A DNA stretch of 53,077 nt from Candidatus Poseidonia sp. GTDB taxonomy: Archaea > Thermoplasmatota > Poseidoniia > Poseidoniales > Poseidoniaceae. The notes beneath the pieces are model-generated. The model was given only the letters and a program-made list of their open reading frames with translations. It had not been told where the DNA came from and searched no databases. The DNA lies in the NCBI GenBank assembly GCA_030827745.1, contig JAURDW010000004.1, positions 1 to 53,077 of the forward strand, given 5' to 3'. Positions 745-10,044 of the stretch are shown one piece after another. Every line of letters starts with the position of its first letter. Positions within the stretch are counted from its first letter, which is position 1. The position numbers and the translations under genes are program-made.

Positions 745-1563
745 TCAATTCTTCTCGTGCTCAATGTCAGCCGCAAAACCATCTCGAGCGTCGCTCATGC
801 CTCCAAACAATGCCTGTGCAAAGGTGAGGATGTCAGCGAGCCCTTCTTCCAGCTCTGAAGAGAGAGGTGTCAGCCCGGGCGCTTGGGAAAACTCTTGCAT
901 CATCCGAAGTTGGTTGATGGCAAACTCGGTTCGCTGCCCCCCAGCTTCGTCGTAAAGCGCCAGTTCAAGAATTTCAAGCCGCTCGGACCATTCCAAGATT
1001 TGCGCCAAGTCATCGGGGTCAAGTAAATCCGATTTTGAGAGGAAATTCTTGGTCGGGAGCCCGAGTCGGAACTCAACGATGGAGGAAAGGAGCATCTGAG
1101 ATACGAATCCTGAGGGCGACCTTGAGAGCATGGGGTCAAAGAGGTAGATAATGGCGGATTGTTCTCGGCCCAACGTCTCAATCAGGTGGTTGCTGGCTTC
1201 ACGGAAGGCGAACAATTCAACTTGACCCGGGGTGTCGACAATCATGATTTCTCCGGAGAGCGTATGGAGTTGGTCCGCCACTTGTCCTGCCTGAGCAGCG
1301 AGAAGGTCAGCAGCGAGGATTTGGGCGCCGTTGGGGCCCAAGTCGTATTCGTCCATCACTTCGGTGAGCGAAATCAAGTCACGAACGTCAAATTCTGCAT
1401 CGTAATGGACCCGTTCAGCACCGGGGTCAAGATTGACAGCGATGACTTCGGTTTCTAAAAATCGAGACCAGCGTTGAAACGCCGTCACCAAGGAAGATTT
1501 TCCCGCTCCAGCGGTGCCCACAACAAAGAGAACGGGAGGGGAACTGTTGTCCATGCCGACCAT
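745..1563 (-). CDS. GPN-loop GTPase
   Basis: P-loop GTAGAGKSS, NLDPGAE, DLGPNGA (GPN motif), DTPGQVELFAF. Confidence 0.92.
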   Translation of the reverse strand: MVGMDNSSPPVLFVVGTAGAGKSSLVTAFQRWSRFLETEVIAVNLDPGAERVHYDAEFDVRDLISLTEVMDEYDLGPNGAQILAADLLAAQAGQVADQLHTLSGEIMIVDTPGQVELFAFREASNHLIETLGREQSAIIYLFDPMLSRSPSGFVSQMLLSSIVEFRLGLPTKNFLSKSDLLDPDDLAQILEWSERLEILELALYDEAGGQRTEFAINQLRMMQEFSQAPGLTPLSSELEEGLADILTFAQALFGGMSDARDGFAADIEHEKN

Positions 1564-1717: not shown

Positions 1718-4405
1718 ATGACCGACGAGAAACCCCCCATGCCACCTGGACTGCCACCAATGCCGCCCATGCCACCCGGTGAAGCCCCTCCGGCACCGCC
1801 CGGGCTTCCACCCATGCCTCCGATGCCTGACGCACCTCCCGCTCCACCCGAGGCCCCGCCCATGCCGCCCATGCCTGACGCACCTGCAGCCGACCCGCTG
1901 ATGGACCCGCTCGCAGCACCCCCGGCTCCGCCCGCTTCCGACATGCTCCTTGTTGACCCCCTTGCTGCTCCACCGGCACCGCCTGCCCCGGACATGCTTG
2001 TCGACCCGCTGGCGCCTGCACCTGCATCAGACCCTCCGCTCCCGGACCTTGCACCGTCGGATTTGACCGGCGTGCAAGCAGGGGCTACCATTCGGAGCCT
2101 ATCAGACGTTGAATCGGTGCTCGGAGACAAACTCGAAGGCACCCTCCACGAAATTGAAAGCACCACGCTGAACGCCGAAGGCGCCATCATCAAGCAGTCG
2201 GTGAAGGGGACCTTGACGGTGAACAATCCCTCTGCCGAAGACCGAATTTACGATATTGATGTGCTTCTGGACAACATTGACGCTACGGACATCGGTGGAG
2301 AGCACGTTTCCGTTGATGAACTTGAACCCTCAAAGAACCACACGATGGCGTACAAGGTCAACGGAAAGCAAATGATGACGCTGCGGGAACGACTTGACAC
2401 AAATCCTTCCCGCGACCAAGAGCGTTCCCTTTCCGTGGCCATCGGTGAAGATCCGGGTTCAATTTCCATGGAACTTGAGGTCGAAAACCTCTCGGACGTT
2501 GCTTTGCATGACGTGGTCGTCACGCGACCCATTCCAGAGGAGATGAACTTTGAGACTGCCGGCGGGGCCGACCTTGATGAGGGGACGCTCACATGGACCG
2601 TTGGTCGCCTCTCGGCCGGCGAGAAGCAAACCTTGTCGCTTGAAGGCACCGTCTCTGTTTCATCCACCAAGGCCATCAAGGCAGGGAAGGCGACTGCCAC
2701 CTATCAGGCGGACGCTACCCTGTCCAACATGAGTTTCCGAGAGCTGGACGCCTTCTGCCGAGGTTTCACGTACATGAAGGTCCGGGAAGACGAGCGCCCC
2801 GACAACTGGAAGTGTCAAGCCATCTTTGAAAACCGCTCTTCGTTCGCAGTGGACCTCACCAAACTTCAAGTTCGCATGAAAGGCTCCGAAGACTTGCTCT
2901 TTGACATCCATGACGTCGACCAAGATGTTTCTCCTAACGGGAAGTGGGAGTCTGATGAGCGGGTCGTGATGGCCCAATCTGAACCCGACTTCACCTACGA
3001 TTTGTCCTACACGGTGCTGCCACGGGCGGTTCAATCCACCGAGGGCAGCATGACGCTTGAGGAAAAGAAATTGGAAGTCCTCGAAGCCGATGTTGTCAAG
3101 AACTACTCAACCACCAGTCTGCGCTCCTACCGTTCCCAAAAATTGACGTCGACCATGACGCTAACCAACAAAGGTTCGGCCGTTATCAACCTCATGCGTA
3201 TCACCGATGACATCCCCGGCCTCTTCGAGGCACCGCTTGGTGAACAATTGACCATCAAATTGGATGGAAAAGCCATCGACGATGACCAATTCAAGGTAGA
3301 AATTTCCGAGGGCATCACGCTTGAGAAAGAACATCGCTCACCTGACGGCAGCGGTCACAGCATGACCCTCACCGTGGGCACGCGCGGCCCGCTCGGCTTG
3401 AAACCTGGAAAATCGATTGAAATCAGTTATCCGTTGACCGCCCCAGACCCCTCTCCAGGGAATGAGCGCGTGGATGCACCTGCACGAATTGAATTCAGTG
3501 CAGAGCGTTTTGGTCCAATTTGCTCCAAAGAACCAGAATCCGCTCCATCTCTGAAAGTTGTTCACAACCGTCGGAACTTCAGCGCGGGCAAACAAGCCAT
3601 CCCGTTGGGTGGGAAGGGGCGTTACGAAGTGCTGATCTTGTTTGAGAACAACGGGGACACGGCTCTGAGCGATCTTTACATCAACGATGTCCTTCCACCC
3701 CAGTTTGAAATCAAAGAATGGGAGATGAAGGGCGGAAATGGCAAGCGAGACGACGTCACCATGACTTCCGAAGAGGGAGAAGGTGGCCTTCACATCGTTT
3801 GGCATGTCCCGAAGGTAGAGAAAGGGGAGCGCCTCGAAGTTTCGTTTGATATCAAAGGAAGCGGTGTCGTTGACGCCGAAGCTTTGAACCGATTCCACGG
3901 CGTTCATTTCGGTGATGAGATTGAATCCGATGATCTCCCTTCCGTTGACGATGCACCTGTTGAGGAAGCAGAAGCGGTCGCTGATGACGCATCAGCAGCG
4001 AACGATGAGGTGGACTCCGAGGACGCAGGTCAAAGCATGAAATTCCGCGAGGACATGCTGCTCAAAGTGATGGAATCCGCAGGCATCGATGCATCCCACC
4101 GAGACGACTTCGTGACCTTTGCGGCCGACTACGACCACGACGACAACGGCTACCTCAAGAAGTCTGAACTTGAAGATGCAGCCGCAGCCTGGAATGCACG
4201 AGATGGCGCCAGCGACGCTGGAGAAGAAGATGCTGAGGCCGATGAAGCCTCAAACAGTGATGGCCAAGAAGAACCTGAGGGCGAACCCGATGCACCCACT
4301 GATGGAGCCGATGCTGCAGAGGAGAAGGCGTGCATGATCTGCTCGACCGCCAACGCTCACGACGCCGCCGTTTGCACTGCTTGTGGTTACACGTTTGAGT
4401 CCTGA
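1718..4405 (+). CDS. Large multidomain protein: Pro/Met-rich N-terminus, DUF11-like Ig-fold repeats, EF-hand, C-terminal zinc ribbon; function unknown
   Basis: 895 aa. N-terminus PPMPPGLPPMPPMPPGEAPPAPP...; DUF11-like segments (MELEVENLSDVALHDVVVTRPIPEEMNFE; VLILFENNGDTALSDLYINDVLPPQFEI); EF-hand loop DYDHDDNGYLKKSE; CMICSTANAHDAAVCTACGYTF. SD-like GTGAGG upstream of the ATG. Confidence 0.85.
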   Translation: MTDEKPPMPPGLPPMPPMPPGEAPPAPPGLPPMPPMPDAPPAPPEAPPMPPMPDAPAADPLMDPLAAPPAPPASDMLLVDPLAAPPAPPAPDMLVDPLAPAPASDPPLPDLAPSDLTGVQAGATIRSLSDVESVLGDKLEGTLHEIESTTLNAEGAIIKQSVKGTLTVNNPSAEDRIYDIDVLLDNIDATDIGGEHVSVDELEPSKNHTMAYKVNGKQMMTLRERLDTNPSRDQERSLSVAIGEDPGSISMELEVENLSDVALHDVVVTRPIPEEMNFETAGGADLDEGTLTWTVGRLSAGEKQTLSLEGTVSVSSTKAIKAGKATATYQADATLSNMSFRELDAFCRGFTYMKVREDERPDNWKCQAIFENRSSFAVDLTKLQVRMKGSEDLLFDIHDVDQDVSPNGKWESDERVVMAQSEPDFTYDLSYTVLPRAVQSTEGSMTLEEKKLEVLEADVVKNYSTTSLRSYRSQKLTSTMTLTNKGSAVINLMRITDDIPGLFEAPLGEQLTIKLDGKAIDDDQFKVEISEGITLEKEHRSPDGSGHSMTLTVGTRGPLGLKPGKSIEISYPLTAPDPSPGNERVDAPARIEFSAERFGPICSKEPESAPSLKVVHNRRNFSAGKQAIPLGGKGRYEVLILFENNGDTALSDLYINDVLPPQFEIKEWEMKGGNGKRDDVTMTSEEGEGGLHIVWHVPKVEKGERLEVSFDIKGSGVVDAEALNRFHGVHFGDEIESDDLPSVDDAPVEEAEAVADDASAANDEVDSEDAGQSMKFREDMLLKVMESAGIDASHRDDFVTFAADYDHDDNGYLKKSELEDAAAAWNARDGASDAGEEDAEADEASNSDGQEEPEGEPDAPTDGADAAEEKACMICSTANAHDAAVCTACGYTFES

Positions 4406-4444: not shown

Positions 4445-4864
4445 TTACTCTGGAAGGACCCATTGTGGCCATTCCTCTTGTTCGGGTGAACGGCTCACGA
4501 TGACCAAAACGGGGCGCTGCAGCGATGAGAGGACCTCTTCAAGAGGTCGAACCGTCGACGGAGGCATCATGCCATCCCGCAAATCCACCGCCAGCCAGGC
4601 GTGTGGATATTGAGACTCCCAAGCCTTGAGTTCAGCTTCGATGCCCGACGGAGGGACGCCTTGCCGGAGGCTTGCGATGAAACCCCAATTTACGGGGCAG
4701 GTCCGTTCGTTTTCTGTCCAAAGGAACACTTTGGGTTCAACGGGAAGACGAGCAATCTGCTCGAGGGCTTCCGTCTCCGTTGCGCAAACAGGTTGTCCGG
4801 GCATCGGCATGGGCAACGGGTACCGCCATGTGGTCGAGACCTCAAGCGGTTCTTTTCGTCGCAT
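4445..4864 (-). CDS. Hypothetical protein
   Basis: 139-aa ORF filling the gap between two plus-strand genes; no family recognised. Confidence 0.6.
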   Translation of the reverse strand: MRRKEPLEVSTTWRYPLPMPMPGQPVCATETEALEQIARLPVEPKVFLWTENERTCPVNWGFIASLRQGVPPSGIEAELKAWESQYPHAWLAVDLRDGMMPPSTVRPLEEVLSSLQRPVLVIVSRSPEQEEWPQWVLPE

Positions 4865-4931: not shown

Positions 4932-5879
4932 ATGCTAACCTTCATGCCCTACCTTCATTCCCTTTGGTCCATGGCTAACGGCTCATCGCCCCCACCGCCC
5001 CCGCCTCCAAACGGATCGATGGGCATGATGTTGCTGTTCATGATCATGATGACGTTCCTCATCATGACGCCCTCCATTCGGACGTCGCTGGGCAACACGG
5101 CCGACCCCCTCCTCTCGCCGGTGTTGCCCGAGGAGTCGTTTTTTGTCATCACCGTGATGATTCTCGGGATTTTCTCCATGACGTTGAACACGGTCATTCG
5201 GAATCTCTTCGTAGACCCCATGGATCAAGCCCACATCGGGCATCGCCAAGGTCAAGTTCGTCAAATGATGAACGAAGCCCGTCTTTCACGGGACCCCATT
5301 CTTCAAGAAAAGGCCATGACCCTTCAACAACAGATGATGCCTGAACAACTCGAAGTGCAAATGGGCGCCATGAAACCGATGATGTTCACGATGATATTCA
5401 TCATTGGGATTTTTGCCTGGCTAACAACGAAGGTTGAGACGTTCCGCGTGGACTACGTCTCTCTGCCGTGGGCGCCTGAATGGAATTTACTCGAGGGACG
5501 CTTCTTGTTTTTCCCCGCTTGGATCTGCTGTTATATTTGCATGAGTGCAGCCTACGGACGAGCATTGGACCGACACATCAAACTCGCCCGATACAAAACT
5601 CACCCCTTGGTGGTCTCCGGCGACTTGCTGAAGGAGCCTTTGTTGCATCTTGTGGCCACGAAACCCGCCGCAACATCCTCTCAGGCGAAGAAACGCCAAC
5701 AGCGTTCAAAGCGCAGCCAACAACGAAAGAAGGCGGCTCCCTCGAACAGCACTGAGGCACCTACGCCAACGGCTGCAACTGCAGGGGCGTTGGTTTGCCC
5801 GGAGTGTGACGGCGATGTCATTACCCACGACGGCCCGAGGACGAAACGGTGCAACATCTGTTTCCATGAATGGGTGTGA
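4932..5879 (+). CDS. DUF106 / EMC3-TMCO1-like membrane protein (Oxa1 superfamily) with C-terminal zinc ribbon
   Basis: TM segments, DPMDQAHIGHRQGQVRQMMNEARLSRDPILQEKAMTLQQQMMPEQLEVQMGAMKPMMFTMIFIIGIFAWL. C-terminal CPECDGDVITHDGPRTKRCNICFHEWV. Upstream of cmk-cbf5, as in other archaea. Start may be a downstream ATG (4944). Confidence 0.85.
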   Translation: MLTFMPYLHSLWSMANGSSPPPPPPPNGSMGMMLLFMIMMTFLIMTPSIRTSLGNTADPLLSPVLPEESFFVITVMILGIFSMTLNTVIRNLFVDPMDQAHIGHRQGQVRQMMNEARLSRDPILQEKAMTLQQQMMPEQLEVQMGAMKPMMFTMIFIIGIFAWLTTKVETFRVDYVSLPWAPEWNLLEGRFLFFPAWICCYICMSAAYGRALDRHIKLARYKTHPLVVSGDLLKEPLLHLVATKPAATSSQAKKRQQRSKRSQQRKKAAPSNSTEAPTPTAATAGALVCPECDGDVITHDGPRTKRCNICFHEWV

Positions 5880-7605: not shown

Positions 7606-10044
7606 TTATTCAATTTTCTTGACCTTCGCAGGCATCACATACGCCAAAAGCGCAAGCAACCCAATGGACACGAAAACAAAACCAGCGCCAAGAACGCCGC
7701 TCGAGAGACCTTCATCCGAATTTGATGCCCCATTTTCAGGTGCTTTGTTAACGGCGACCAAAGACTCAATCTCGTTGTTTTCTTCATCACCTTCGGCAAT
7801 CTCTAGACCACGGTCAACCACAGCTCTGAACCGAATCACTTCAACATCGTTTGGAATCTGCCAGTCGCACGTCACGGATCGCAATTCACCCGGTTCAATG
7901 AGCGCAACCGTCTCCACGCCAATGAGTTGGTCGTTTGCTTCGCAGCGGACCGAGACCATGGTGGCGTCGGCTTGGCCACCGTTGCGAATCAACAAGCGCA
8001 TGGACACAACGTCGCCCTGGGTCAACTCATCGGCCCCTAAATCCATGGATTCAATGTAGAGGTCAGCCAGCGCCATGACTTCAAAGTCCACTTCTCGCTC
8101 CGAGCATCCCGTTTGGTCACAAACCGAGACCAGAACGGTATGGAAGCCGATGTTCGGGGGCGTGACGGTCAGCGAATTGCTGGTGAGGTCCACCACGGCC
8201 CACGAACGGTTGGTGGAGGCGGTCAATTGTGTGGAATCAATGTCAAACCAACTCATTTCGATCACAGATTGGACATCCCGTTCCACAGGGATGAGGGATT
8301 GGAATTCAGCGACAACGGGTGGGTCGTCCACGGCTTCAACCACCACCGAGAAGGAGTCTTCCCAAGCGTTGCCTGCATCATCAAGAACGGTCACGCCCAC
8401 GACGGCTTGGCCGCTGGCTTCGGGCAAAAGGCGGACCCGAACATCGCCTTCGGCGAGATCCACCTCAATCAGGTCGCTGTTGGTGTTTGTGAATTGAACC
8501 TGAAGCATCTCGTTTGACGTTCGGTCATCGGCACATCGGAGCAACAAGGGGAGGATGATACCGCCGTTGTCTTCCGTGAGCGTTTGGTCGCCGAGCGGTT
8601 CGCATACCGGGTCTTCGTTCCATTCAATGCCAAAGCCCCCAGATACGGTGATGGTGCTGAATTCGAGGGCGGTGGTGCTTTCCTCACCGCTTGAATCCCA
8701 AGTAAACCACGCACGAACGCTGACCTCCAACGAATCGCTTTCCGAGTTGAGATAAGCGCCAATGGGCCATTCATGAGCAAATGAACCAATTTCCATGGCT
8801 TCGTTTGAGACCACTTCCCCGTTGACGAACAAAAGCCAACGGGAATAATTTGCGTCGATGCCGTCGTTGTTTCCGAAGATTCGCCCGCTCAGGCGGAGCG
8901 AAGGGTCGTTGACATCAACCCAGACTCGGTCCACGCATGCGTCCAATACCGTCACCCGAAGTTGGTAGGCTGCCGCCTGGGGGAGGAGGGTGTTGGGAGT
9001 CATCGGTTGAAACTCGCCAACCGAAAGACCGTCTTGAGAGAGGGCGACTTCAATGGTGGTGTTCTCCACGTCTCCTTCGCTGGTTGTGAGGTGGACCCGC
9101 CCGAGTCCTTGTTCCGGGGGCGGTGTGAACAAGGGACTTGTCCACGTTCCAGAGGTGCCGTCCACAAGCGGTTTCAATCCACACTCGTCAAGGGCCATGT
9201 TGTTCGTGGTACCCGTTTCGATATCGAGGTCCATGACGGGCATGTCGTGACCGGTGAAGGTGGAACTTGCGTAGGCCACTTCGCCTCCGTACCAAGGCGT
9301 TTGTACCGTAATGTCGAGGCCAAGTGCATCCACGACAAGACGAGAATCATCAACCCCGCCCGCCGAAACATAGTCCAGTGTGAACACCAACTCCGCAAGG
9401 TCTGTCCAGGTCCACTCGACGAGCCCGGTGAGGTTGAGAGCGTAGGCGCTGTTGTTGATGTAATCGACGTTTCCTTGGGTGTGTGCAAACGTCTTCAGCA
9501 GGTCAAACCCATCGCTGTGTTCCACCGAAATTCGGACGGTGTCCTCTTGAAGGGCGTCGGGAATTTGGAACACTGCCCGCAGATGGACGGCGTACAGGGT
9601 GTAGGAGGTCAACCCGCTTGTGTCAAATCCTGTCAGTTGGATTTCCGGCCCCGTTGACCAGGTGGATGCACCGTCGGGAGCTCCGGTGGAGTAGTTTGAA
9701 TCGGTGGGGGACGAGGAAGACCAAACCGTGAGCGTGTCGAGGTGCAACGGTCGTTGATGGACCATGCTCAGGCGTTGGTCGGCGACCATGGTTTCCGTGT
9801 ATGTCGCCGCTTCTTGTGTGAACGAGGTCTCAGCACCGACCTGCCAGGCTCCCGCATCCTCAAGGGAACCCTGTGGAAAGATATCAACAACCGAGGTGCT
9901 ATGGACGCTTCGTCCATCTGCCGTTCCCGTGAAGGGTGTGCACGTCGTCAACAGCAAAAGAAGGACCAAACAAATGGCGGGTGCGCTGCTTCGCATAGAA
10001 GAAGGCACACCTCGGCACTTCTTGAAACAAAGGGTTTCACGCAT
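7606..10044 (-). CDS. Secreted/surface protein with CARDB-like domain and C-terminal TM anchor
   Basis: 812 aa. Signal-peptide-like MRSSAPAICLVLLLLLTTC (alternative start 9996); CARDB-like DLYIESMDLGADELTQGDVVSMRLLIRNGGQADATMVSVRC; C-terminal TM VLGAGFVFVSIGLLALLAYVMPAKVKKIE. Confidence 0.85.
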   Translation of the reverse strand: MRETLCFKKCRGVPSSMRSSAPAICLVLLLLLTTCTPFTGTADGRSVHSTSVVDIFPQGSLEDAGAWQVGAETSFTQEAATYTETMVADQRLSMVHQRPLHLDTLTVWSSSSPTDSNYSTGAPDGASTWSTGPEIQLTGFDTSGLTSYTLYAVHLRAVFQIPDALQEDTVRISVEHSDGFDLLKTFAHTQGNVDYINNSAYALNLTGLVEWTWTDLAELVFTLDYVSAGGVDDSRLVVDALGLDITVQTPWYGGEVAYASSTFTGHDMPVMDLDIETGTTNNMALDECGLKPLVDGTSGTWTSPLFTPPPEQGLGRVHLTTSEGDVENTTIEVALSQDGLSVGEFQPMTPNTLLPQAAAYQLRVTVLDACVDRVWVDVNDPSLRLSGRIFGNNDGIDANYSRWLLFVNGEVVSNEAMEIGSFAHEWPIGAYLNSESDSLEVSVRAWFTWDSSGEESTTALEFSTITVSGGFGIEWNEDPVCEPLGDQTLTEDNGGIILPLLLRCADDRTSNEMLQVQFTNTNSDLIEVDLAEGDVRVRLLPEASGQAVVGVTVLDDAGNAWEDSFSVVVEAVDDPPVVAEFQSLIPVERDVQSVIEMSWFDIDSTQLTASTNRSWAVVDLTSNSLTVTPPNIGFHTVLVSVCDQTGCSEREVDFEVMALADLYIESMDLGADELTQGDVVSMRLLIRNGGQADATMVSVRCEANDQLIGVETVALIEPGELRSVTCDWQIPNDVEVIRFRAVVDRGLEIAEGDEENNEIESLVAVNKAPENGASNSDEGLSSGVLGAGFVFVSIGLLALLAYVMPAKVKKIE

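Follow-up and report, generated by a model that had tools for sequence, protein, structure and literature searches.

The stretch of DNA analysed here (the window, 53,077 nucleotides from Candidatus Poseidonia sp.) contains an ORF for an 895-aa protein in which DUF11 domains, common in surface proteins, are combined with an EF-hand and a zinc ribbon. This locus raises the question of whether the protein is an intracellular scaffold or is exported by an unrecognised route, both of which had been proposed in the earlier note, and of what its beta-sandwich domains resemble. The ORF and its parts are as follows.

1718..4405, plus strand: the whole ORF from its ATG start, encoding the 895-aa protein, a candidate cytosolic scaffold with DUF11 domains and a module resembling the mu-homology domain (MHD) of AP-complex mu subunits and delta-COP.
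1718..2062, plus strand: Pro/Met-rich head, residues 1-115, with imperfect repeats, presumably disordered.
2129..2422, plus strand: N-terminal part of the MHD-like module, residues 138-235 (AlphaFold DSSP, hhalign register).
2456..2725, plus strand: DUF11-type Ig domain, residues 247-336 (Pfam DUF11 at 249-337, E 4.9e-13).
2726..2800, plus strand: strand after the first DUF11 domain, residues 337-361, SNMSFRELDAFC... (hhalign).
2798..3076, plus strand: third Ig-like domain, residues 361-453, NWKCQAIFENRSSFAV... (AlphaFold strands, conservation in Thermoplasmatota).
3077..3547, plus strand: second DUF11-like domain, with an insert, residues 454-610 (matches the other DUF11 domains by profile).
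3548..3892, plus strand: third DUF11-like domain, residues 611-725 (P 1.3e-9 against the first DUF11 domain by profile comparison).
3938..4330, plus strand: acidic linker carrying the EF-hand, residues 741-871 (net charge -35 over 741-868).
4133..4168, plus strand: predicted EF-hand calcium loop, residues 806-817, DHDDNGYLKKSE, in Poseidoniaceae only.
4331..4384, plus strand: C-terminal zinc ribbon, CxxC-x10-CxxC, residues 872-889, conserved in almost all Poseidoniales.

The Pro/Met-rich segment (42% Pro, 10% Met), which the earlier note had placed at the tail, is an N-terminal head; its length differs by species, and its start, MTDE or MSEE, is conserved. The repeats described there as DUF11-like were recovered by Pfam in two stretches (E 4.9e-13), and profile comparison showed that the three DUF11 domains of the protein are mutually related. 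The zinc ribbon has the expected two CxxC knuckles (C872-x2-C875-x10-C886-x2-C889) and is retained in nearly all members whose 3' end lies on the contig; it falls below the Pfam cut-off, with an exact and conserved ligand pattern. The EF-hand, also below the cut-off (E 0.33), fits the canonical 12-residue DxDxDGxxxxxE-type loop and is conserved in most Poseidoniaceae; both motifs had been read correctly. The EF-hand loop is missing from the entire sister family and from distant relatives, which retain the core, and this suggests that Ca2+ does not belong to the core function; hence the scaffold part of the proposed Ca2+-responsive scaffold stands, while Ca2+ as its defining property is weakened. 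The EF-hand tail module (residues ~753-830) was also found in giant Poseidoniales ORFs of 1800-2850 aa (G054:C18:3110-3322, G038:C28:9736-9888, G050:C19:12796-12966 and others), and is probably a mobile module.

The fold of the core was analysed by structure prediction. Residues ~138-361 have a well-supported MHD-like fold in these models, which was not noticed in the earlier note. Two readings of this likeness have to be weighed, common descent with MHDs and convergence; according to the latter, the protein would be a multi-Ig scaffold of the cytosol that goes back to DUF11 repeats of the adhesin type, and its resemblance to MHDs would have no evolutionary or functional meaning. The AlphaFold model of the 650-residue core (pLDDT 87) was compared with known structures by Foldseek. 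The top ranks were taken by long integrin chains (integrin alpha), generic sandwich strings, which favours convergence, and the single-domain matches among the top 50 were mostly MHDs of AP-2 mu, AP-3, AP-4 and delta-COP (TM by target up to 0.66, E ~1e-8). As an independent test, the matching 240 residues of a relative that is 23% identical (L101) were folded as a single domain (pLDDT 84, pTM 0.75) and compared with 350,542 PDB chains. The best 50 matches were all MHD proteins (AP-1, AP-2, AP-4, delta-COP; E 3e-9 to 6e-7, TM by query 0.60-0.67), which argues against convergence; the delta-COP MHD 4o8q gave TM 0.66/0.66 at an rmsd of 3.7. The two beta-sandwich subdomains of this model, and likewise those of the core model of the 895-aa protein, superpose jointly on known MHDs, and the predicted strand count and order are compatible with a subdomain B that interrupts subdomain A. 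A comparison with viral models, in which a Tupanvirus DUF11 protein came first, returned multi-Ig strings and was uninformative.

By hhalign and AlphaFold DSSP, the six strands of residues 138-235, the first of which form a long hairpin, match strands 1-6 of MHD subdomain A; by hhalign, residues 247-336 correspond to subdomain B (MHD 131-249), and the SNMSFRELDAFC... strand (337-361) aligns to MHD strand 15 (SGLKVRYLKV). A duplication of the entire module within the 895-aa protein was not found; the DUF11 part alone recurs, and the kinship of the three DUF11 domains is another point in favour of convergence.

The sequence comparison was made with a profile of five MHD sequences, each confirmed against PDB chains. 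The Thermoplasmatota-wide profile of the MHD-like region aligned to it with a score of 40.1 (P 4.5e-5), compared with a mean of 13.2 (sd 2.2, maximum 20.6) in 300 column shuffles and at most 21.2 for eleven control protein families from the same genomes. The alignment is colinear (10-219 to 17-248) and covers both subdomains with the strand that follows, which also speaks against convergence; single MHD sequences align in the same register, as does the N-terminal half alone, though only at P 0.013. When each MHD was left out in turn, P stayed at or below 2.3e-4. With delta-COP omitted, only the subdomain B part aligned and the N-terminal half dropped out of the local alignment, which is the main weakness of the sequence case. 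The conserved residues aligned with mu2 include E145/E179, G155/G189, G164/G198, P273/P327, W293/W353 and S336/S397; the permutation test for residues conserved in both families gives no measure of significance, since columns of this sort are favoured by the alignment itself and the test is thus circular.

Generic DUF11 domains bear on the same choice. Thirty six of them, taken from arrays L114-L124, matched the MHD profile weakly (score 23.0, P 0.008) over subdomain B only, so part of the signal could come from the beta-sandwich pattern that DUF11 and subdomain B have in common, as convergence would have it; what our family adds to this signal is the N-terminal half together with the strand that follows the DUF11 domain. 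The N-terminal half is not where the generic arrays match best, which counts against convergence. To judge from these profiles, the weak likeness of generic DUF11 domains to subdomain B may itself reflect an ancient relation. The Pfam MHD model PF00928 (gathering cut-off 31.6 bits) had no match at gathering score among the 895-aa protein and the relatives searched, which again favours convergence: the best score was 19.2 bits, in the relative L065, and the 895-aa protein scored 15-16 bits. In two of the 59 relatives this curated, independent model ranked the orthologue as the genome-wide best match, below the cut-off, with an alignment spanning most of the model (13-194 or 26-225). A sequence search of PDB with the 895-aa protein or its profile gave no meaningful match. 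The adaptin ear (Alpha_adaptinC2) was considered as a nearer relative and rejected: it gave only scattered sub-cut-off Pfam matches on DUF11 domains and, in a search of the protein's own genome, none at this gene, and two approximate ear sequences did not match the domain profile. Overall, we consider convergence rather unlikely, though it is the strongest of the alternatives.

If the module is MHD-like, does the protein act as an adaptor subunit does? We take the Yxx-phi pocket of mu2 to consist of F174, D176, K203, W421 and R423. This pocket is not conserved in the 895-aa protein, where the aligned positions are E, T and N and the rest are unaligned, and the module is therefore not expected to bind Yxx-phi cargo; it would more likely have another site, for peptides or lipids. 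In contrast to AP mu, there is no N-terminal longin domain, its place being taken by the Pro/Met-rich head. Since these defining features were tested and not found, and PF00928 stays below its cut-off, the protein is not assigned to PF00928 or to the AP mu subunits. Neither an Arf-type GTPase nor Snf7/ESCRT-III was found in 21 related genomes, the Snf7 control itself matching only weakly, in Sulfolobus; the search of the genomes for the clathrin small chain and longin gave no match, with controls equally silent, and is uninformative. Vps4 and ESCRT-III were absent from the annotated neighbours of the gene and of its relatives. As Arf and Snf7 were not found, the vesicle machinery is not visible, and the data do not imply vesicle trafficking as known from eukaryotes.

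In eukaryotic coats (AP complexes, COPI) the cargo-binding MHD is a hallmark domain; in archaea it has, to our knowledge, been reported from the Asgard group only. The open literature, to which the search was confined, gave no account of MHD-like domains in other archaea. The 895-aa protein has in common with the MHDs of PF00928 (AP-1 to AP-4 mu, delta-COP) the predicted two-part beta fold, and differs from MHD proteins in its three further Ig-like domains and its archaeal, non-Asgard origin. Asgard archaea carry a mu C-terminal domain, separate from other AP domains (Eme et al. 2023, PMC10307638), and thus provide an archaeal parallel to our family; the Asgard AP-domain homologues are reported to be sparsely distributed, whereas our family is near-universal in Poseidoniales. 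Archaeal ESCRT loci encode Meth_adaptin and Halo_adaptin, adaptin-appendage-like Ig proteins (Makarova et al. 2024, PMC10936438). Like the 895-aa protein they are Ig-like, adaptin-related and euryarchaeal, and one has a zinc ribbon, but they match the appendage (ear) domain rather than the mu domain and adjoin Vps4/ESCRT-III genes, while Snf7 was not found in the 21 genomes examined here.

The gene neighbourhood was compared between Poseidoniales and other Thermoplasmatota. The neighbours in the window are:

745..1563, minus strand: GPN-type GTPase (PF03029), divergent from the 895-aa protein gene, adjacency kept in Poseidoniales.
4932..5879, plus strand: EMC3/TMCO1-like membrane insertase, downstream, followed by a cytidylate kinase-like gene and truB.

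The gene stands in a strongly conserved order in Poseidoniales, UbiA - OTC - GPN GTPase - 895-aa protein gene - EMC3 - cytidylate kinase-like - truB. The position beside a GPN GTPase, pointed out in the earlier note, is thus conserved within Poseidoniales and is absent in the other Thermoplasmatota relatives, where the gene (L096-L105) is flanked by RqcH/NFACT, in divergent orientation, and by a convergent signal-peptidase-I-like membrane gene, the latter named from sequence inspection and lacking a Pfam match. The conserved synteny with EMC3, GPN GTPase and truB in one group and the RqcH/NFACT and signal-peptidase-like neighbours in the other could mean that the protein is peripherally involved in protein biogenesis or quality control, with a link to membrane insertion, RNA polymerase or the ribosome. 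The two contexts have no gene in common and the neighbours are general housekeeping genes, so that the neighbourhood gives only a faint hint of such a role; we consider it improbable, and it is compatible with an adaptor. A conserved 139-aa ORF with no Pfam match (4448-4864, minus strand) lies between the 895-aa protein gene and EMC3 in ~11 Poseidoniaceae loci.

Whether the protein leaves the cell was assessed from its start and hydropathy. An in-frame TGA at 1706 rules out a longer start or an upstream leader. The highest 19-residue Kyte-Doolittle mean is 1.0, located at the zinc ribbon, compared with 2.1-2.4 in the nearby EMC3 and CARDB membrane proteins, which suggests that there is neither a transmembrane segment nor a hydrophobic leader, in agreement with the earlier note. 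Export signals were found neither in 48 Poseidoniales loci nor in the Thermoplasmatota relatives; their absence from every member suggests that the family is cytosolic, and supports the intracellular scaffold over the unrecognised export route, which no observation requires. An 812-aa exported protein (7606-10044, minus strand) with a leader, a CARDB domain and a C-terminal transmembrane segment is encoded in the same window, and its position next to truB is kept in most Poseidoniales loci. That the 895-aa protein is a surface adhesin with an unrecognised export route, as the usual occurrence of DUF11 domains in surface proteins might suggest, is very improbable, as leader, transmembrane segment and anchor are missing in every relative, the protein is acidic and has a cysteine zinc ribbon, and the leader and transmembrane segment of the CARDB protein show that the organism uses ordinary export signals. 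The 895-aa protein shares DUF11 domains (E 4.9e-13) with DUF11 (PF01345) archaeal surface proteins and differs from them in having no leader or anchor, and nothing comparable to the N-terminal half of its MHD-like module was seen in the DUF11 arrays tested.

The first search found a match in 54 of 59 related genomes, and in all 19 that are at least 90% complete; these counts include any match, and a few of the best matches cover the EF-hand tail module only. The core profile gave exactly one match per matching genome in both Poseidoniales families, and nearly every Poseidoniales genome sampled has the gene as a single copy. A contig end falls within or just after the Pro-rich repeat in 18 of 48 loci, and most missing cases are probably explained by incompleteness and such contig ends. 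The same breaks recur in MAG contigs of the Poseidoniaceae loci L001-L030, so automated annotations of the gene are likely often truncated. Full-core relatives outside Poseidoniales were found in three Thermoplasmatota families (f11, f28, f33; core profile E 7e-60 to 6e-91); they have ~660-680 aa where complete and lack the Pro head and the ribbon. Weaker matches elsewhere were ordinary DUF11 arrays. In the core, most genus members are ~79-92% identical to the protein, most sister-family members 36-49% and the relatives from the other Thermoplasmatota families ~22-25%, which points to clear selection on the protein. The head and the ribbon are Poseidoniales features, the head being lost in one genus (g7), and the EF-hand is an addition of Poseidoniaceae; since relatives keep the core without them, the core is the invariant part.

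Together, these observations make it reasonably probable that the protein, encoded once per Poseidoniales genome, works in the cytosol as a multivalent adaptor or scaffold with an MHD-like module as its basis. Its core would consist of beta-sandwich domains strung rigidly together. Of these, the first two would make up the MHD-like module, a hairpin-led sandwich and then a DUF11-type domain at the place of subdomain B; the following strand would be the one that in MHDs returns to subdomain A, and after it would come the third Ig-like domain and the other two DUF11 domains. The MHD-like and Ig modules may bind partner proteins or attach to the membrane on its cytoplasmic side, with the presumably disordered, Pro-rich head and the acidic tail extending outward and the C-terminal zinc ribbon binding one more partner; in Poseidoniaceae the added EF-hand would provide a Ca2+-binding tail, as predicted from its loop. 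Common descent with MHDs, the adaptor function and the identity of the partners are what we infer.

That Thermoplasmatota, a non-Asgard group, have in this module a true cytosolic homologue of the MHD is possible, and we propose it tentatively. In that case a DUF11-type Ig domain and a hairpin-led sandwich may have been joined in archaea to give the MHD, at a time that predates coats and clathrin adaptors. If abundant marine archaea have an MHD-like domain in a conserved protein of their cytosol, the origin of the domain would move beyond Asgard archaea, and the compact core-only relatives of ~660 aa would allow one to ask what the MHD did before vesicle trafficking.
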